A stretch of 64,000 nt of DNA, from positions 27,399 through 91,398 of the forward strand of contig CAMUHY010000014.1 of NCBI GenBank assembly GCA_947088865.1, read 5' to 3'. This stretch comes from an uncultured Eubacterium sp. Lineage in GTDB: Bacteria > Bacillota > Clostridia > Lachnospirales > Lachnospiraceae. A program made the translations under genes and the position numbers. Shown here piece by piece: positions 5,417-16,912 of this stretch (positions are counted from its first letter, which is position 1; each line of letters starts with the position of its first letter). The notes beneath the pieces were generated by a model. The model did no database searches. It saw only the letters and a list, made by a program, of their open reading frames with translations, and was not told the DNA's origin.

Positions 5417-6760
5417 TTATGCGTGCAATGATGGTTTATGCAAAGTATAAAATTTCTTTCGATAAAACCATACAGATAATATGACGCCAATGCACCAGCC
5501 AATAGGCCAAGAACACCAAATTCCCACATATCCCCATTGATTTGAGAGAATCATTGCCAGTATGACGCGCAAGGTTAAATCGGTAAATGTTGCTATCATA
5601 AATTGCCGCATTAATCCTGCACCGCGAAGAACGCCGTCTGCAACTAGTTTTACAGCTATAATAAAATAAAATGGAGCGACAATTTTAAGGAATTGTGTGC
5701 CTGATGAAAGTGCTATTTCAGATGGTTTATCCATAAAAAATTGGATGAGTATATCATTTGCTAAAATATATAGTACTACAATAGGTATACATAATATCCA
5801 TACGATTTTAGTAGCAGCTTTAAAACCGTCTTTGATACGAGGTAATATATTTGCTCCCAGATTTTGTGCAGTGTAATTTGAAACGCCATTTCCTAGTGTT
5901 GTAAGAGAGGTAATAACTAGATTATTTAATTTAATTGCAGCAGAATAACCAGCAATTACTTCTGAACCAAATCCATTGATAACACCTTGAATAATAATAT
6001 TTCCTATTGAAATAAAGCTTTGCTGTAAGATACTTGGTATTGCGATGATAGCTATTTTTTTTAACAATGGTGCTGAAAAGAAAGTAATTTTTCCATCTGT
6101 ATGTATAGCAGTCAGTCTTTTTAATACTATAATGATTGCAAAAATACAACTGATTCCTTGACACAGAAAAGTTGCCCATGCCACGCCTGCTACACCCATA
6201 TGAAAGGCAGAGACAAATAAGATATCAACTGCTATATTGGATGTAGACGAAATTGCCAAGAAAATAAATGGTGTTTTGGAATCGCCAAGCGCTGAAAAAA
6301 TACCTGTTGCAACATTATAAAAAAGCAAAAATGGAAATCCTAATATATAAATATCCAAATATAATTTAGAATCTGCAAAAATACTATCTGGCGTGCGAAT
6401 TAAATAAAGAAGTTTGGTACAGCCAAGTATACCTGCAAGCATAAGAAAAACACATAATATAACACTGGCGATTGCTGATGTATATATGGCTGTTTTCATA
6501 TCTTTATATTTTTTTGCACCAAATAATTGAGAGACAATAACGGAACAACCTATATTGCATCCAAAAGCAAAAGCAATAAAAATCAGTGTGATTTCATAAC
6601 TGTTGCCAACTGCTGCAAGTGCATTTTCACCTATAAATTTACCTGCCACAAAACTGTCAGCAATATTATATAACTGTTGAAAAATAATGCTTCCAAACAG
6701 TGGTATACAAAATTTCCATAAGACCGTTTCTGGTTTTCCTACGGTTAAATCCTTATTCAT
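5417..6760 (-). CDS. MATE-family multidrug/Na+ efflux transporter
   Basis: 447-residue integral membrane protein with about 12 hydrophobic segments. The N-terminal MATE pattern is clear: KPETVLWKFCIPLFGSIIFQ, then LYNIADSFVAGKFIGENALAAVG and a later VSQLFGAKKY. The ATG at 6760 was chosen because GGAGGATTTAT precedes it; a longer in-frame start lacks a ribosome site. It probably expels cationic drugs or metabolites using a cation gradient. A LysR regulator is encoded divergently about 480 bases away and is a plausible controller. Confidence 0.93.
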   Translation of the reverse strand: MNKDLTVGKPETVLWKFCIPLFGSIIFQQLYNIADSFVAGKFIGENALAAVGNSYEITLIFIAFAFGCNIGCSVIVSQLFGAKKYKDMKTAIYTSAIASVILCVFLMLAGILGCTKLLYLIRTPDSIFADSKLYLDIYILGFPFLLFYNVATGIFSALGDSKTPFIFLAISSTSNIAVDILFVSAFHMGVAGVAWATFLCQGISCIFAIIIVLKRLTAIHTDGKITFFSAPLLKKIAIIAIPSILQQSFISIGNIIIQGVINGFGSEVIAGYSAAIKLNNLVITSLTTLGNGVSNYTAQNLGANILPRIKDGFKAATKIVWILCIPIVVLYILANDILIQFFMDKPSEIALSSGTQFLKIVAPFYFIIAVKLVADGVLRGAGLMRQFMIATFTDLTLRVILAMILSNQWGYVGIWCSWPIGWCIGVILSVWFYRKKFYTLHKPSLHA

Positions 6761-10018: not shown

Positions 10019-10617
10019 GTGTAGAAGAATTGAGGAAAGAGTTGGAGCAAAATGGATTTCAACTGGAATACAAAAATGAGAAAAATAAGCTGATAAATAT
10101 TCAACAGTCATATGAAACATTATATGATTTATCTAAATTAACAAAGGCGGAGAAAAATATTTTAGAAGCTTTTCTGTTTTTCCATATTTGCCTTTGGTTG
10201 TTTAGGTGTGTAATCAATGGTTACTTTTCGATGCGAGCCAACAATGAAAAAACATGTAGGATTAATTGAGTCATGTTAAAAGAGTTTAGAAATATCAGAA
10301 AATGATTCTGCTTTAGAATGTCAAAATTATGTACCTTTTGCAGAAAGTATAATTGAAAAAATAGATATGAGACAAGGTATAGAAAAAGCTGAATTTATGT
10401 TTAGGCTTGCTTCTTTATTATAATACATTGCAGACTATAAGAAAACAGAAAAATTATATCAACAAAATCTTGAAATATATAAACAAGAATTAGGGGAGAA
10501 TTATCCTGATACTGTCACAAATTATACTAATCTGGGAGGAGTGTATGAAAGTTAGGGAAAATACAAAATGGCATTGGTTTATTACTTAAAAGCATATAAG
10601 ATTTTTGTTTTTTCATA
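10019..10617 (+). pseudogene. Decayed partial copy of the NB-ARC/TPR gene
   Basis: Nearly identical at DNA level to parts of the intact gene at 11999-15007. It begins at the [16 protein letters not shown] segment (copy of about 12770), lacks the N-terminal NTPase region, and has lost about 130 bases after LEAF. It then runs through the linker and first TPR with stop codons (TTAAAAGAG, TTATAATAC, GTTAGGG) and jumps straight from the first TPR to the last (GKYKMALVYYLKAYKIF). The TPR array has therefore collapsed. It is a relic of a tandem duplication with the miaB fragment downstream. Confidence 0.88.
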
Positions 10618-10699
10618 AATATTAGTGTATTGCACTAATGTAACATTACCAACAGGAGCCTTAAACAAAAAAATAATCGTTTATGTTTATACATACCCT

Positions 10700-10771
10700 A
10701 TAATGATGACATATGCAATAAACTTACCTAAATTTTATAAAAAAGACATTTGACATTTACAATGTTATCTT
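10700..10771 (+). promoter_or_regulatory. Degenerate duplicate of the miaB upstream region
   Basis: 10700-10730 matches the ATGACGACATATGCAATA block found upstream of intact miaB, but the CCTCCCACCACAC part is deleted. TTGACA (10750-10755) and TATCTT (10766-10771) are now only 10 bases apart instead of 17, so this promoter copy should be dead. Confidence 0.6.
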
Positions 10772-10827
10772 AATTTATAGTATGTAATCCTACATATTTG
10801 AAGAGGAACATTAAAGGAAAAAAGAAC

Positions 10828-11025
10828 ATGCACGATTATAATATAGAAAGAATGAACTTACTGGAAGAAACTCCAACAACCGAGCCAGAACGCCAGTTAT
10901 ACTATGTAGCAAAGTGCCAACAGCACGTTCAAGCATTAGAAAAAAGATTAGGACGTAACGTAAGCTGTTATGTAGAGACGTTTGGGTGTGCAAATATTAT
11001 AGCTACACAGAAAATGAGAAAGTGA
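10828..11025 (+). pseudogene. 5' fragment of miaB (duplicate)
   Basis: The first 54 codons match intact miaB (15458 onward) with one residue change, from MHDYNIERMNLLEE to SCYVETFGC. Identity stops abruptly at about 10992, just before the QMNARD motif, and 11 unrelated codons lead to TGA. It lacks the radical-SAM and TRAM domains, so it cannot modify tRNA. It marks the right edge of the duplicated segment. Confidence 0.93.
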
Positions 11026-11332: not shown

Positions 11333-11980
11333 ATGGGACAACACATTATAAACAATTTACAAGGCGTTACCATAGGAGGCAATTATACAGGAGGAAATAG
11401 TATAATAAATGATTATAATCCTTCAATGGAAGAACATGTAAAGGAAAGCAACGATAAAACAATCTTTCTTTCTTACAATTGGCATGATGGAGAAATAGCA
11501 GATAAAATTCATAAACATTTATCAAGTTTTTCTAATATTACTGTAAAAAGAGATATTTGCTATATTGGCATATGGAAAAGTATCCGAGAATTTATGAAAA
11601 GTATTAGAAATCAAAGTTATGCTGTTTTGATTGTTAGTGATTATTATTTAAAATCAAAAAATTGTATGTTTGAAGTAACAGAGATTATGAAAGAACAAGC
11701 ATATAAAGACAGGATATTTCCAGCAGTAGTGGAACACAGAATATATGACCCATTGATACGAGCAAAATATATAAAGCATTGGCAAGAAGAATGTAATAAG
11801 TTAGAAGTAGCTATAAAGGGATTGGATTTAGCAAATGTTACAGAATTGACAGCTGATTTAAAATATTATAAAAGTATTGCTTCTTCTATGGGAGAATTTT
11901 TAAGTATTGTTGCGGATAAGAATAATCCAGATATTCAAGAAGTAGAAATTCAAATAGAGAAAGCAATATTAAAGAATTAA
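11333..11980 (+). CDS. TIR-domain effector with N-terminal NLR-shared motif
   Basis: 215 residues. Residues 5-24 carry INNLQGVTIGGNYTGGNSI, which recurs at the N-terminus of the next gene's product. Residues about 42-170 are a TIR domain: TIFLSYNWHDGE (strand A/box 1), VKRDICYIGIW, then SYAVLIVSDYYLKSKNCMFE, where E114 after NCM is in the position of the NADase glutamate. No membrane segment. Family knowledge: bacterial TIR effectors degrade or cyclise NAD+ on activation. The next gene, 18 bases downstream, is an NB-ARC/TPR protein and the probable sensor. The ribosome site is weak (ATAGGT). Confidence 0.85.
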   Translation: MGQHIINNLQGVTIGGNYTGGNSIINDYNPSMEEHVKESNDKTIFLSYNWHDGEIADKIHKHLSSFSNITVKRDICYIGIWKSIREFMKSIRNQSYAVLIVSDYYLKSKNCMFEVTEIMKEQAYKDRIFPAVVEHRIYDPLIRAKYIKHWQEECNKLEVAIKGLDLANVTELTADLKYYKSIASSMGEFLSIVADKNNPDIQEVEIQIEKAILKN

Positions 11981-11998
11981 TACAAAGGAGTACTTGTT

Positions 11999-14900
11999 AT
12001 GGAACAAGATATAGATAATCATCTTCAAGGCAATAATATTGGAGAATATACAGGTGGTAATAGCATAAAAAATTATATAGTATTATATCAGGACAAAGAC
12101 CGTGAATTTATTGTTACACATAATGTCAATATCAAGCCTGTATCTTATTTTACTGGACGTGAAGTAGAATTGAACAAGTTATGTCAAATGGTAGAAGAAA
12201 GTCATAAGGCTGTTTTAGTAAGTGGAATGGGTGGAATTGGAAAAACCAACATTTGTAAAAAATTGTTTGAAAAATATACAGATAAGAATATAGCATATAA
12301 AAATAGACTCTTTCATCATGTTGGATATATTGAGTATAATGGAAATATGGATAATAGTTTACTCAACTGTTTGAAGTATAAGAAACAAGACAATCCAGAG
12401 CTGAATAAAGAAGCTGCTTGGATGGAACTAGAATACTTGGCATCCGATGGAAAGTTATTGTTATTTGTGGATAATGTAAATGTGCCTATTAGTAATGACC
12501 CAAGTTTAAAAAAATTAAATGAACTTCCAGGAGCAATTGTTTTAACATCTAGGCGGACAGTATTTAGTAAAGAATTTGAACCATTCCAAATTGGCTTTCT
12601 TAGTACCAAACAATGTAGAGAAATTTATGAGAAAATTCGATTTGGGAGCAGTACGAAAAAAGTCAATGAGGAAGAAGAACCTCATTTGAATTACATAATA
12701 GAAAAATTAGCGGCTAGACATACCATTACGATTGAATTTTTGGCACATTTAGCCAAAACAAAACATTGGTCAGTAGAAAAATTGAGGAAAGAGTTGGAGC
12801 AAAATGGATTTCAACTGGAATATAAAGATGAGGAAGATAAGCTGATAAATATTCAACAGTCGTATGAAACATTATATGATTTATCTAAATTAACAGAGAC
12901 AGAGCAAAATATTTTAGAGGCTTTTTCTGTTTTTCCATATTTACCTTTGGCTATTAAGGTGTGTAATCAATGGTTACTTTCCGATGCAGGTGTTGAGGAA
13001 AAAGAGGATATTTTAGAAGGATTATATCGAAAAGGTTGGCTACAATTTGATATAGAACAAGAAAGTTATAGTTTGCATCCAGTATTTTCAACATTTATTT
13101 ATGAAAAATGCAAGCCAACGATGAAAAAACATGTAGGATTAATGAAGTCATGTCAAAAGAGTTTAGAAATACCAGAAAGTGGTTCTGCTTTAGAATGTCA
13201 AAATTATGTACCTTTTGCAGAAAGTATAGTTGAAAAAGTAGATATGGGACAAGGTATAGAAAAAGCTGAATTTATGTTTAAGCTTGCTTATTTGTTACAA
13301 TACATTGCAGATTATAAGAAAGCAGAAAAATTATATGAACAAAGTCTTGAAATATATAAACAAGAATTAGGGGAGAATCATCCAGATACTGCCACAAATT
13401 ATAATAATCTGGGAGGAGTGTATGCTAGTCAGGGAAAATACAAGGAAGCAGAAAGCTTGTACAAAAAAGGATTAGAAATACGTGAAAAGATATTAGGAGA
13501 GAATCATCCAGATATTGCTACAAGCTATAATAATCTGGGAGGAGTGTATGCTAGTCAGGGAAAATATAAGGAAGCGGAAAAATTGTATAAAAAGGGATTA
13601 GAAATAAATGAAAAGATATTAGGAGAGAATCACCCAGATATTGTTATAAGCTATAATAATTTGGGAGGAGTGTATGCTAGTCAGGGAAAATATAAGGAAG
13701 CAGAAAGCTTGTACAAAAAAGGATTAGAAATACGTGAAAAGATATTAGGAGAGAATCATCCAGATATTGTTATAAGCTATAATAATTTGGGAGGAGTGTA
13801 TGAAAATCAGGGAAAATACAAGGAAGCGGAAAGCTTGTATAAAAAAGGATTAGAAATAAGTGAAAAGGCATTAGGAGGAAATCATCCTTATACTGCTATA
13901 AGCTATAATAATCTGGGAGGAGTGTATGTTAGACAGGGAAAATACAAGGAAGCAGAAAGTTTATATAAAAAAGGATTAGAAATAAATGAAAAGATATTCG
14001 GGGAGAATCATCCAGATCCAGCTACAAGCTATAATAATCTGGCATATGTATATGCTAGTCAGGGAAAATACAAGGAAGCGGAAAGCTTGTATAAAAAAGG
14101 ATTAGAAATAAGTGAAAAGATATTCGGGGAAAATCATCCAGATTCAGCTACAAGCTATAATAATCTGGCATATGTATATGCTAGTCAGGGAAAATACAAG
14201 GAAGCAGAAAGTTTGTATAAAAAAGGATTAGAAATAAGTGAAAAGATATTCGGGGAGAATCATCCAGATACTGCCATAAGCTATACTAATCTAGCAGAAG
14301 TGTATGCTAGTCAGGGAAAATACAAGGAAGCGGAAAGCTTGTATAAAAAAGGATTAGAAATACGTGAAAAAATATTAGGAGAAAATCATCCTTATACTGG
14401 TATAAGCTATAATAATCTGGGAGGAGTGTATGATAAACAGGGAAAATACAAGGAAGCGGAAAGCTTGTATAAAAAAGGATTAGAAGTAAGTGAAAAGATA
14501 TTCGGGGAGAATCATCCAGATGCTGCCATAAGCTATATTAATCTAGCAGGAGTGTATGTTAAACAGGAAAAATACAATGAAGCAGAAAGATTATATAAAA
14601 AAGGATTAGAAATAAGTAAAAAGACATTAGGAGAAAATCATCCTTATATAGCTACAAGCTATAATAATCTAGCAGGAGTGTATGCTAGACAGAGAAAATA
14701 CAACAAAGCGGAAAGCTTGTATAAAAAAGGATTAGAAATAAGTGAAAAGATATTCGGGGAGAATCATCCCGATACTGCTATAAGTTATAATAATCTGGGA
14801 GGAGTGTATGATAGACAGGGAAAATACAAAATAGCATTGATTTATTACTTAAAAGCATATAAGATTTTTGTTTTTAAATTAGGGTTGCAACATCCAAATA

Positions 14901-15007
14901 CACAGATTGTTTATGGAAATATGGAAATAGCTTATTCTAAATGGAATCCAGAAGGTGATTTTAACCAGTGGTTGGAAGAAGAAATGAAAGAAATAAAACA
15001 AGAATAA
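11999..15007 (+). CDS. NLR-like STAND NTPase: N-terminal motif, NB-ARC, 13-unit TPR array
   Basis: 1002 residues. 5-23: DNHLQGNNIGEYTGGNSI, matching the TIR protein's N-terminus. About 50-350: NB-ARC/STAND module with FTGREVEL, Walker A GMGGIGKT at 76-83, Walker B LLLFVDNV near 152-159, VLTSRR sensor and LPLAIKVC. About 438-980: thirteen 42-residue TPR_12 units, eleven of them near-identical (YKEAESLYKKGLEI...GENHPD...). ATG follows AAAGGAGT. In such proteins the repeats usually sense the trigger, the NTPase oligomerises and the N-terminal motif recruits the effector. A decayed relative lies at 10019. Confidence 0.9.
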   Translation: MEQDIDNHLQGNNIGEYTGGNSIKNYIVLYQDKDREFIVTHNVNIKPVSYFTGREVELNKLCQMVEESHKAVLVSGMGGIGKTNICKKLFEKYTDKNIAYKNRLFHHVGYIEYNGNMDNSLLNCLKYKKQDNPELNKEAAWMELEYLASDGKLLLFVDNVNVPISNDPSLKKLNELPGAIVLTSRRTVFSKEFEPFQIGFLSTKQCREIYEKIRFGSSTKKVNEEEEPHLNYIIEKLAARHTITIEFLAHLAKTKHWSVEKLRKELEQNGFQLEYKDEEDKLINIQQSYETLYDLSKLTETEQNILEAFSVFPYLPLAIKVCNQWLLSDAGVEEKEDILEGLYRKGWLQFDIEQESYSLHPVFSTFIYEKCKPTMKKHVGLMKSCQKSLEIPESGSALECQNYVPFAESIVEKVDMGQGIEKAEFMFKLAYLLQYIADYKKAEKLYEQSLEIYKQELGENHPDTATNYNNLGGVYASQGKYKEAESLYKKGLEIREKILGENHPDIATSYNNLGGVYASQGKYKEAEKLYKKGLEINEKILGENHPDIVISYNNLGGVYASQGKYKEAESLYKKGLEIREKILGENHPDIVISYNNLGGVYENQGKYKEAESLYKKGLEISEKALGGNHPYTAISYNNLGGVYVRQGKYKEAESLYKKGLEINEKIFGENHPDPATSYNNLAYVYASQGKYKEAESLYKKGLEISEKIFGENHPDSATSYNNLAYVYASQGKYKEAESLYKKGLEISEKIFGENHPDTAISYTNLAEVYASQGKYKEAESLYKKGLEIREKILGENHPYTGISYNNLGGVYDKQGKYKEAESLYKKGLEVSEKIFGENHPDAAISYINLAGVYVKQEKYNEAERLYKKGLEISKKTLGENHPYIATSYNNLAGVYARQRKYNKAESLYKKGLEISEKIFGENHPDTAISYNNLGGVYDRQGKYKIALIYYLKAYKIFVFKLGLQHPNTQIVYGNMEIAYSKWNPEGDFNQWLEEEMKEIKQE
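13313..14824 (+). repeat. Twelve tandem 126-bp TPR-coding units
   Basis: Units of exactly 126 bp, each coding one 42-residue TPR_12 repeat, starting at 13313, 13439, 13565 and so on to 14699; a divergent thirteenth begins at 14825. Units 2-12 are nearly identical at DNA level, including silent positions, which points to recent expansion or gene conversion. The decayed copy at 10019 retains only first and last units. Confidence 0.95.
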
Positions 15008-15284
15008 AAAGAGATGTGATAGTATCAGACAAGACCAAAACATATGGGTAACAAACGAGTAACTAACAATATCCTTGTTAAGCCTAGTATTTACTGGGGT
15101 GACGGTTTCTGTTGAGGAGGCAGTAACTATGTATAAAATATACATATAATTTTTATAGGAAACAGCCAAATTTTTAAAGTTTGGCTGTTTTTAAACAATA
15201 AACATAAATAAAAATATGGTACTAATGTAACATGACTGATAGAAACTTTAGATAAAATAATCTTTTATATTTATATATATTCCT
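15008..15284. other. Intergenic region after the NLR gene
   Basis: Contains a seven-codon frame (ATG at 15129) behind an excellent ribosome site GAGGAGGCAGTAACT, which may be the leader of a lost small gene such as a type I toxin. The terminator at 15160-15193 follows. No longer gene is visible. Confidence 0.35.
15160..15193 (+). terminator. Rho-independent terminator of the TIR/NLR operon
   Basis: AAACAGCCAAA pairs with TTTGGCTGTTT around a nine-base loop and is followed by TTTTTAAAC. The first, decayed copy has lost it. Confidence 0.85.
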
Positions 15285-15332
15285 ATAATGACGACATATG
15301 CAATAAACTTACCTAAAATCCTCCCACCACAC
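15285..15332 (+). promoter_or_regulatory. Upstream block shared by the miaB and rplU promoters
   Basis: ATAATGACGACATATGCAAT, then TTACC and AAAATCCTCCCACCACAC. The same block occurs upstream of the rplU promoter (60110-60158, minus) and, truncated, at 10700. Here it ends 42 bases before the -35 box. Confidence 0.6.
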
Positions 15333-15374
15333 CCTCACAACCACCACTTTACCCAAATTTTATAAAAAAGACAT

Positions 15375-15403
15375 TTGACATCTGATATTTACAATGTTAT
15401 CTT
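15375..15403 (+). promoter_or_regulatory. Sigma-A promoter of miaB
   Basis: Consensus -35 TTGACA at 15375-15380, a 17-base spacer, and -10 TATCTT at 15398-15403, about 55 bases before the miaB start codon. Confidence 0.7.
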
Positions 15404-15457
15404 AATTTATAGTATGTAATCCAACATATTTGAAGAGAAAAATTAAAGGAAAAAACC

Positions 15458-16912
15458 ATGCACGATTATAATATAGAAAGAATGAACTTACTGGAAGAAG
15501 CTCCAACAACCGAGCCAGAACGCCAGTTATACTATGTAGCAAAGTGCCAACAGCACGTTCAAGCATTAGAAAAAAGATTAGGACGTAACGTAAGCTGTTA
15601 TGTAGAGACGTTCGGGTGTCAGATGAATGCCAGAGACTCTGAAAAATTACTTGGAATTTTGCAAAAGATTGGCTATAAAGTTGTCGATTCTGAAAATGCA
15701 GATATAGTTTTATACAACACATGTACTGTACGCGAAAACGCAAATTTAAGAGTATATGGAAGATTGGGACAGCTTCATGTCTTAAAAAAGAAAAATCCAC
15801 ATATGATAATTGGTTTGTGCGGTTGTATGATGCAAGAGTCTGAAGTTGTTGAAAAGATTAAAAAATCTTATAAATTTGTTAATATTATTTTTGGAACTTT
15901 TAATATATTTAAAATTGCTGAACTTTTATGCAGTTATTTTGATACGAAAAAACAAGTTATTGACATTTGGAATGATACAAAAGAAGTGGTAGAAGAGTTG
16001 CCAACTGCCAGAAAATATCCTTTTAAGTCCGGTGTGAATATTATGTATGGATGCAATAATTTTTGCAGTTATTGCATTGTACCATATGTTAGAGGACGTG
16101 AAAAATCACGCCCACCGATAGAGATTGTAAGAGAAATTGAACGATTAGTTGAAGATGGCGTCAAGGAAGTGATGCTTTTAGGACAAAATGTAAATTCTTA
16201 TGGAAAAACATTTGAAGAACCATTTACTTTTGCAATGCTTCTTAAAGAGGTTGAAAAAATTGAAGGGCTAAAACGAATCCGTTTTATGACGCCTCACCCA
16301 AAAGATTTTTCCGATGACTTGCTTGAGGTTATGGAACATTCAGAAAAAATATGTAACCATATTCATTTTCCATTACAATCAGGAAGCAGTAAAATTCTTA
16401 AAATAATGAATCGAAAATATACAAAAGAACAGTATCTTAACTGGGTGAAAAAAATTCGTGAAAAATTGCCGGATGTATCTTTGACAACCGATATTATTGT
16501 GGGATTTCCTGGTGAGACGGAAGAGGATTTTCAGGATACATTGGACGTTATTAAAAAGGCAAAATTTGATAGCGCCTATACATTTATTTATTCTAAACGA
16601 ACAGGAACGCCTGCTGCCAGCATGGAAGGACAAATTCCAGAATCGGTTGTTAAAGACCGATTTAACCGATTGCTAGAAACGGTTGGGTGTGTATCACATG
16701 AAGTCCATGCAAGATATACAGGACAGACCGTAGATGTTTTAGTTGAATGTGTAAATGCTCAAGATTCTTCACTCGTTACAGGAAGACTTACAAATAATAT
16801 GTTGGTTCATTTTCCGGGTGATGCATCGTTGATTGGAAAAATTGTTACCGTAAAATTAACCGAAAGCAAAGGATTTTATTATATTGGCTGTATAGAACAA
16901 AAATCTGAATAA
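15458..16912 (+). CDS. miaB: tRNA-2-methylthio-N6-dimethylallyladenosine synthase
   Basis: Radical-SAM methylthiotransferase that adds a methylthio group to i6A37 of tRNA, acting after MiaA (encoded downstream). 484 residues. UPF0004 domain with cysteines in ETFGCQMNARDSE, NTCTVREN and GLCGCMMQES (auxiliary 4Fe-4S). Radical SAM motif CNNFCSYC with IVPYVRGRE after it, and a C-terminal TRAM region. The start ATG at 15458 follows AAAGGAAA. The first 54 codons are duplicated at 10828. It heads the miaB-mutS-mutL-miaA block. Confidence 0.97.
   Translation: MHDYNIERMNLLEEAPTTEPERQLYYVAKCQQHVQALEKRLGRNVSCYVETFGCQMNARDSEKLLGILQKIGYKVVDSENADIVLYNTCTVRENANLRVYGRLGQLHVLKKKNPHMIIGLCGCMMQESEVVEKIKKSYKFVNIIFGTFNIFKIAELLCSYFDTKKQVIDIWNDTKEVVEELPTARKYPFKSGVNIMYGCNNFCSYCIVPYVRGREKSRPPIEIVREIERLVEDGVKEVMLLGQNVNSYGKTFEEPFTFAMLLKEVEKIEGLKRIRFMTPHPKDFSDDLLEVMEHSEKICNHIHFPLQSGSSKILKIMNRKYTKEQYLNWVKKIREKLPDVSLTTDIIVGFPGETEEDFQDTLDVIKKAKFDSAYTFIYSKRTGTPAASMEGQIPESVVKDRFNRLLETVGCVSHEVHARYTGQTVDVLVECVNAQDSSLVTGRLTNNMLVHFPGDASLIGKIVTVKLTESKGFYYIGCIEQKSE

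Follow-up and report, generated by a model that had tools for sequence, protein, structure and literature searches.

The window analyzed here, a stretch of 64,000 nucleotides (nt) from an uncultured Eubacterium sp. of the Lachnospiraceae (assembly GCA_947088865.1, contig CAMUHY010000014.1), contains two adjacent genes, one encoding a protein with a Toll/interleukin-1 receptor (TIR) domain and the other an NB-ARC protein of the NOD-like receptor (NLR) type with tetratricopeptide repeats (TPRs), and both proteins begin with a common short motif. We cautiously favor the reading that they form a two-gene NLR-effector defense module whose parts are coupled by this homotypic adaptor motif. Open reading frames (ORFs) and Pfam bear out the gene pair proposed by a first-pass annotation, and its proposal of a common N-terminal motif on two otherwise unrelated proteins also holds: residues 1-40 of the two proteins align with a local score of 67 (5000 shuffles: mean 25, maximum 61), while the remainder scores 38 against a shuffled mean of 39, indicating no relationship beyond the motif. 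The motif cores are identical at 15 of 24 aligned columns, with one gap, and the consensus is roughly [IV]xNxxxxxx[I/V or F/Y]xGx[YF]xG[G/R][N/D]. Both copies are predicted to be disordered in single-chain structural models (predicted local distance difference test, pLDDT, below 50), and such a model is compatible with a motif that folds upon binding.

We searched 299 genomes of the family with a motif-only profile, which includes rows of both positive genomes and thus measures specificity rather than discovery. Seven places were found at E <1e-4, all of them within TIR/NLR pairs of two genomes (the window's and one other; one pair is truncated). The next-best match had an E-value of 0.012, and the matches at E <=0.5 in 52 of the 299 genomes look like chance. 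The pair is also rare: TIR matches at E <=0.001 were present in 10 of the 299 genomes, and among the loci examined from these 10 the motif occurred only in the window's genome and in G242. In ten TIR-homologue loci with no NLR within 1.5 kb on each side (L012-L019, L167, L168), the profile detected no motif (best E 0.89).

A scan of genome contigs with the N-terminal region of the NLR yielded 63 loci, 31 of which are close relatives (L023-L053, at least 44% identity). In seven of these 31, including loci of Akkermansia muciniphila and A. glycaniphila, a TIR gene with an N-terminal motif lies directly upstream. In another 19, the upstream ORF encodes a mini membrane protein, 63-73 residues long, whose predicted membrane helix is a single strongly hydrophobic stretch close to the N-terminus (Kyte-Doolittle mean of 1.85-2.44 over 19 residues) and which carries a copy of the motif at the C-terminus (decayed in L040); together with the N-terminal copy on the NLR, this is the topology of bacterial amyloid signaling sequences (BASS). 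The ORF overlaps the NLR start by 23-29 nt in 16 of the 19 (4 nt in L040, 44 nt in L053, none in L050), and the view of the non-TIR relatives as lone NLRs was rejected, since these short upstream ORFs were present on inspection. The remaining five loci comprise three metallophosphoesterase fusions, a different N-terminal fusion without the motif (L047), and a locus that keeps the NLR motif with only a remnant upstream (L051). In the three former (L043-L045), an N-terminal metallophosphoesterase, identified by Pfam in L043 and L044 and by resemblance in L045, is joined to this NB-ARC/TPR chassis in one protein, which hints that effectors may change between separate and fused forms. Predicted viral contigs, when scanned, contributed a further two TIR pairs (L119, L120) and a further five membrane-helix pairs (L121, L123-L126). 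Three members of the mini membrane protein group were tested and matched no Pfam or NCBIfam family at E <=0.01; a DUF3611 match of one small membrane protein (E 0.061) was below the family cut-off and was not accepted.

Sharing of the motif within a pair was significant (p<0.01 against 2000 shuffles per pair) in 10 of 10 TIR pairs, which are not ten independent cases because the TIRs of L034 and L048, two loci of the same genome, are nearly identical, and in 22 of 23 membrane-helix pairs, L040 being the other (p 0.012). Two of the 10 TIR pairs are from Akkermansia, and the effector motif is N-terminal in all 10, the window's included. Over 24 columns, an NLR motif agrees with the effector motifs of its own type at an average of 9-10 positions, compared with about 6 for the other type, and a profile made from part of the pairs recovered both motif copies in the held-out L048, L121, L125, L126, L026, L029, and L036. 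From the 33 two-gene pairs, L040 was excluded for its decayed effector motif, leaving 32 for the pair tests; the fusions L043-L045 and L047, the remnant locus L051, and L127 (with another motif) were also excluded, and the truncated L022 and the near copies L124 and L128 never entered. The near copies L039 and L123 were both kept, except in the relatedness-controlled test described below. Wider searches were made with further profiles. A mini-membrane profile matched 6 of 397 family genomes at E <=0.01, one clearly (3.6e-39), which is the L025 locus itself (identical sequence); the second match, L114 (1.6e-5), had no motif by eye. A TIR profile matched 3 of 348 genomes of the phylum, including the window's own, with no further motif pair, and an NLR profile at 1e-40 matched 4 of 344 genomes of the order, again including the window's own, the other three having no motif by eye.

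A cassette made up of the effector gene and its matching receptor head appears to be transferred as a unit onto a common NLR chassis: in 8 of 8 cross-type comparisons of close NLRs, the receptor bodies are alike, but the DNA upstream and roughly the first 30 codons of the NLR are not. In these comparisons, the upstream 300 nt are 32-39% identical and nt 1-90 of the NLR 23-60%, and the later 30-nt blocks are mostly 60-93% identical, with extremes of 43 and 100. Head and body identities were further compared in 351 pairs of 27 loci (L049, L052, L050, L053, L123, and L040 not included). At a body identity of >=0.78, which no TIR-TIR pair reaches, the first 66 nt had a mean identity of 0.49 across types (n=10) versus 0.75 within the membrane type (n=23); at a body identity of 0.65-0.72, the means were 0.63 for TIR-TIR (n=17), 0.69 for membrane-membrane (n=87), and 0.49 across types (n=79). 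On a tree of 39 NB-ARC segments beginning after the motif, in which L127, L052, and L049 have long branches, the TIR label changes 8 times (7 with the rows restricted to the TIR and membrane-helix types). Shuffled TIR labels gave a mean of 9.0 changes and were as low in 133 of 500 cases, so that clustering by effector type is not clear; at least 3 changes are required by the well-supported branches taken alone. On this tree, the window's NLR falls in a group with L033 (TIR) and L024/L030 (membrane helix), and these relatives, L033 and L024/L030, come from a single assembly. L032 and L042, with differing motif subtypes, also share an assembly, and a single viral contig carries a TIR pair and then, about 1.6 kb on, a membrane pair. 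The apparent exchange of the motif, as a kind of tag, along with the killer gene suggests that it is the plug by which the sensor switches the killer on.

Motif residues also co-vary between partners. At column 12, which was picked together with its grouping after all 24 columns had been viewed, both sides are aromatic in 17 pairs and aliphatic in 15, with a mismatch in 0 of 32; this column changes 8 times per side on the tree, and the independent contrasts with good support all point the same way (4 of 4). Directly after YxG, the NLR has R/H in 22 of 22 membrane pairs and a different residue in 9 of 10 TIR pairs (Fisher 3.6e-7, with related rows). The similarity of partners within a type gave permutation p-values of 0.014 (TIR) and 5e-5 (membrane) by BLOSUM, and of 0.033 and 0.0004, respectively, by identity.

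Several points weigh against coupling by the motif, and the after-the-fact choice of column 12 is one of them. Five of the six columns tested were associated between partners, and column 17 was not (p 0.24). The independent contrasts on well-supported branches number 2 to 4, so that sign tests cannot reach 0.05. The residue after YxG has exceptions, namely YIGRD in L052, which goes with a TIR, and YIGRS in the TIR of L120. When NB-ARC relatedness was controlled, pair-specific matching vanished in the membrane type (partial r 0.10, p 0.17); in the TIR type it stayed (r 0.51, p 0.0026), and the effector body behaved likewise (r 0.48, p 0.0034). Co-inheritance thus suffices within types, and within-type co-variation was dropped as proof of partner choice. 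Amyloid-signaling Pfam families matched none of 8 motif-bearing queries at E <=10, in a search where HMMER filters limit short queries; generic amyloid predictors fail to discriminate such motifs (PMC8086366; here and below, such identifiers refer to the excerpts available of these papers). A motif-like linker in L043-L045 is a by-eye impression, which the motif profile did not match at E <=1 and which was not counted. In the window, 9 neighboring genes tested matched no phage structural, lysis, or integration family. Finally, the first-pass annotation had taken matched N-termini as the hallmark of BASS, which is inaccurate, as the described effectors carry the motif C-terminally (PMC7889193). 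Its BASS-like reading survives in part: a motif does join TIR and NLR, in 10 of 10 TIR pairs, and moves with the effector, whereas the N-terminal effector motif speaks against it. The BASS-like logic is strengthened by the relatives that show the true BASS topology.

The features of the locus are collected in Table 1.

Table 1 Features of the TIR-NLR locus and of its decayed upstream copies, in window coordinates
Feature	Position	Strand	Basis
TIR-domain effector gene, 215 aa	11333..11980	+	ORF; Pfam TIR_2 1e-12
NLR gene, NB-ARC + TPR array, 1002 aa	11999..15007	+	ORF, Pfam
Common motif, TIR N-terminus, residues 2-27, predicted disordered	11336..11413	+	pLDDT <50 over residues 1-39
Common motif, NLR N-terminus, residues 2-24	12002..12070	+	pLDDT <50 over residues 1-26
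Predicted catalytic glutamate E114 in SDYYLKSKNCMFE	11672..11674	+	Alignment
AAAGGAG, Shine-Dalgarno-like, inside the gap preceding the NLR gene	11984..11990	+	Sequence
NB-ARC domain, residues 60-285	12176..12853	+	Pfam NB-ARC 4e-9
Walker A GMGGIGKT	about 12224-12247	+	Alignment
TPR array, predicted sensor	13187..14998	+	Pfam TPR_12, TPR_10 very strong; 13 copies in register, 126-nt spacing
Decayed partial NLR copy (NB-ARC end, first TPR part, gene end)	10021..10612	+	Sequence identity
Decayed copy, pre-miaB region + miaB 5' end	10670..10989	+	miaB by NCBIfam

The two genes lie on the same strand and are separated by 18 nt. The structural model of the TIR protein has a TIR fold, and E114, the predicted catalytic glutamate, is invariant in 13 aligned sequences including the window's; a glutamate is the catalytic residue in TIR NADases. 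GMGGIGKT is unchanged across 18 aligned sequences including the window's, and NLR residues 1-440 were modeled as an Apaf-1/CED-4-like NB-ARC. With this P-loop NB-ARC domain and the C-terminal repeats, the protein has the makeup of signal transduction ATPases with numerous domains (STAND) and NLRs. The array of 13 TPR units counted by the first-pass annotation was recovered. Measured at the DNA level against the reference copy, nine of the other 12 have an identity of 82-88% and three of 61-77%, and the high identity is a sign of recent expansion or homogenization of the putative sensor. An NCBIfam match of the NLR to FxSxx_TPR (303.6, cut-off 300) was not accepted as a function, because the TPRs alone are responsible for it. 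PADLOC returned only weak TIR matches and TPR-type matches; among solved structures searched by sequence, the TIR protein had weak matches only and the NLR none at 1e-5; and a promoter and terminator scan gave a richness no higher than in shuffles.

From the gene architecture, the motif sharing, the joint movement of motif and effector, and the predicted disorder, we infer the following biochemical steps. The TPR array would bind a trigger, probably phage-derived, and the NB-ARC domain would oligomerize upon sensing. Brought close to one another in the oligomer, the disordered N-terminal motifs would fold jointly and draw in the matching motif of the TIR protein, a templated cross-beta stack being the most likely form. 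The TIR domains would then cluster into an active NADase, NAD+ would be depleted, and the cell would stop or die (abortive infection). In the relatives, the same receptor chassis would drive a membrane-helix effector after cassette exchange. We regard it as highly likely that the motif decides pairing; the predicted NADase activity of the TIR protein is probable, the putative anti-phage role is rather likely, and templated cross-beta assembly is a tentative proposal.

Alternatively, the motif may be a stoichiometric docking tag, a disordered stretch binding either a single copy of its like or a site on the NB-ARC oligomer, with no polymer or amyloid involved; a resistosome-like NLR ring would then cluster the TIRs as in plant TIR-NLRs. 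We consider this somewhat unlikely: the same motif stands at opposite ends of two unrelated effectors, which is easier for self-stacking than for an oriented dock, and the aromatic/aliphatic agreement at one position suggests like-with-like packing.

It is improbable that the pair is instead toxin-like addiction or competition cargo of prophages or mobile elements, with the NLR restraining the effector and no part in phage defense. Such cargo would fit the related copies in predicted viral contigs (IMG/VR) and near lysis-type genes, although both observations also count in favor of the defense module. Upstream endolysin or amidase family matches (PHROG) were found at 5 of 5 loci picked because lysis-like genes lay shortly upstream (L034, weak, 5e-5; L043, L044, L126, and L127), and other genes tested there matched families of anti-repressors, phage regulators, sigma factors, DnaC-like proteins, and integrases. 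Cargo would also fit the decaying duplicate in the window. The best pieces of the decayed NLR copy are 92% identical to 12773-12987 and 13108-13443 and 87% identical to 14735-14875, and the decayed miaB-end copy is 91% identical to 15254-15317 and 94% identical to 15349-15619. The pair is thus flanked by a decayed and an intact miaB end, and these repeats suggest homology-driven insertion or tandem duplication with decay. The pair itself is chromosomal, ahead of miaB, mutS, mutL, and miaA (NCBIfam), and its TIR protein had no match in plasmid and phage record collections. Against cargo of the addiction type, an intact P-loop with sensor repeats is the usual layout of inducible immune switches, and prophage cargo genes are often anti-phage. 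Elsewhere in the window's genome, a SIR2-like protein lies beside a small TIR-like protein (L004, contig C8, 1225-3298), with NCBIfam matches far below cut-off (Dsr2, 26 of 1400 bits; Thoeris ThcB4, 21 of 220 bits).

The layout of the membrane pairs bears on the origin of the motif. In 21 of 22, the effector core is followed by the NLR core after a gap of 1 nt, forming a 73-nt tandem DNA repeat in two frames (e.g., L024 about 5886-6030). An artefact of overlapping frames was rejected as the cause of the likeness, the cores lying on separate DNA in 22 of 22 membrane pairs measured. A tandem duplication spanning the gene junction may therefore have given rise to the pairing motif, and would in addition allow the two copies to be kept similar by gene conversion. 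This tandem layout, together with the undetected fusion linkers, slightly weakens the adaptor reading and slightly raises the rival one that the motif is a mere by-product of tandem duplication, gene conversion, or junction recombination with no pairing role. Best supported by the 73-nt repeat, and also by the position of the motif at a recombination boundary and the duplications visible at the window locus, this rival is nonetheless very improbable, as the motif copies of the TIR pairs are a whole gene apart and still alike, the cores of L050 are 275 nt apart and the motif is still common to both, and the GxYxG core and the hydrophobic/aromatic positions are retained despite divergence at other positions.

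Beyond the window, the adaptor reading leads to a broader and more speculative possibility, in which gut Firmicutes and Akkermansia use such motifs as orthogonal, self-recognizing address tags. Each cassette would consist of a killer (TIR or membrane helix) and a matching head, one NLR chassis would be re-armed by recombination, insulated circuits would coexist within a genome or viral contig, and the tags would act through templated amyloid-like assembly in unicellular bacteria and their phages. The hosts of the motif pairs found here are unicellular, and, if the proposal is true, amyloid-type NLR signaling extends beyond filamentous bacteria to gut anaerobes and predicted viral contigs. Whether a short motif by itself determines the effector that an NLR fires, and how insulated circuits arise, would then be open to direct testing. 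The natural cassette swaps are ready-made head-swap material for this, with closely related receptor bodies, two heads, and two killers.

Other tags were seen in more distant NLRs. On a viral contig (L127, 5695-8499, with L128 as a near copy), KQNQKVGDNSTAIQVNGD at the N-terminus of the NLR is matched by KQNQKIGNNSKGIQVGGN at the C-terminus of a membrane-type protein of 59 aa encoded upstream, and an amidase gene is also located upstream, separated by a single ORF. Two NB-ARC/TPR relatives, L088 (92-2124, - strand) and L170 (919-3369, + strand), carry an NxGDVHxGDNN-like motif at the N-terminus, as does an adjacent protein of 140-151 aa. In L085, from the cyanobacterial Richelia, the partners share NENWQGINIK, C-terminal on the effector and N-terminal on the NLR, which is the arrangement that BASS are described to have (NLR from about 5944, upstream ORF ending at 5835). 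Tag sharing in each of L127, L088, L170, and L085 exceeds all 2000 shuffles, and the tags of these loci suggest a wider, open-ended code. In addition, an NLR relative on the reverse strand (L172) has a hydrophobic helix at the N-terminus and, after it, NKGKGNT repeats; effector and tag are perhaps combined in this one protein.

Among known systems, fungal NLR amyloid signaling (HET-s, sigma, PP) likewise uses a short motif on the NLR N-terminus and a separate effector (PMC7889193, PMC9815663), but the motifs here have no Pfam match and the effector types differ. Plant TIR-NLRs and other NB-ARC receptors contain TIR and NB-ARC parts with similar folds; in contrast, the window has two genes joined by a motif, and TPRs instead of leucine-rich repeats. 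Effector-associated domains (EADs, Kaur et al.) have a copy on a core NTPase and another on a neighboring effector, neighbors being most alike, and the effector is sometimes fused directly (PMC7159879, PMC8195603). The same non-catalytic unit on the core NTPase and the neighboring effector is found here too; however, EADs are small, folded, and mostly helical domains, whereas the present unit is a segment of about 24 residues that is predicted to be disordered. In the literature searched, including PMC12261475, PMC12881547, and PMC10907252, the motif family was not described, a weak negative because the main BASS paper lies outside that set.

The closest comparison is with BASS, which are described at the NLR N-terminus and the C-terminus of Bell effectors, mainly in filamentous actinobacteria and cyanobacteria (PMC7889193, PMC8086366), some being reported with TIR or CHAT effectors (PMC7889193). 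No Bell domain was seen in the pairs, for which no Bell profile search was made, and the hosts here are gut anaerobes and Akkermansia rather than mainly filamentous bacteria. The TIR pairs also depart from the described C-terminal placement on the effector (PMC7889193). The C-terminal 3-mer ARD of BASS2 (PMC9815663) resembles the GRD form here. As in BASS, the effector and NLR genes are adjacent or overlapping, their proteins share only a short motif at the ends, and the receptor copy is N-terminal; the membrane-helix relatives additionally have a small effector and the effector C-terminal/NLR N-terminal topology. Without filing it under BASS1-10, the best reading by analogy is that the window pair would work like BASS.

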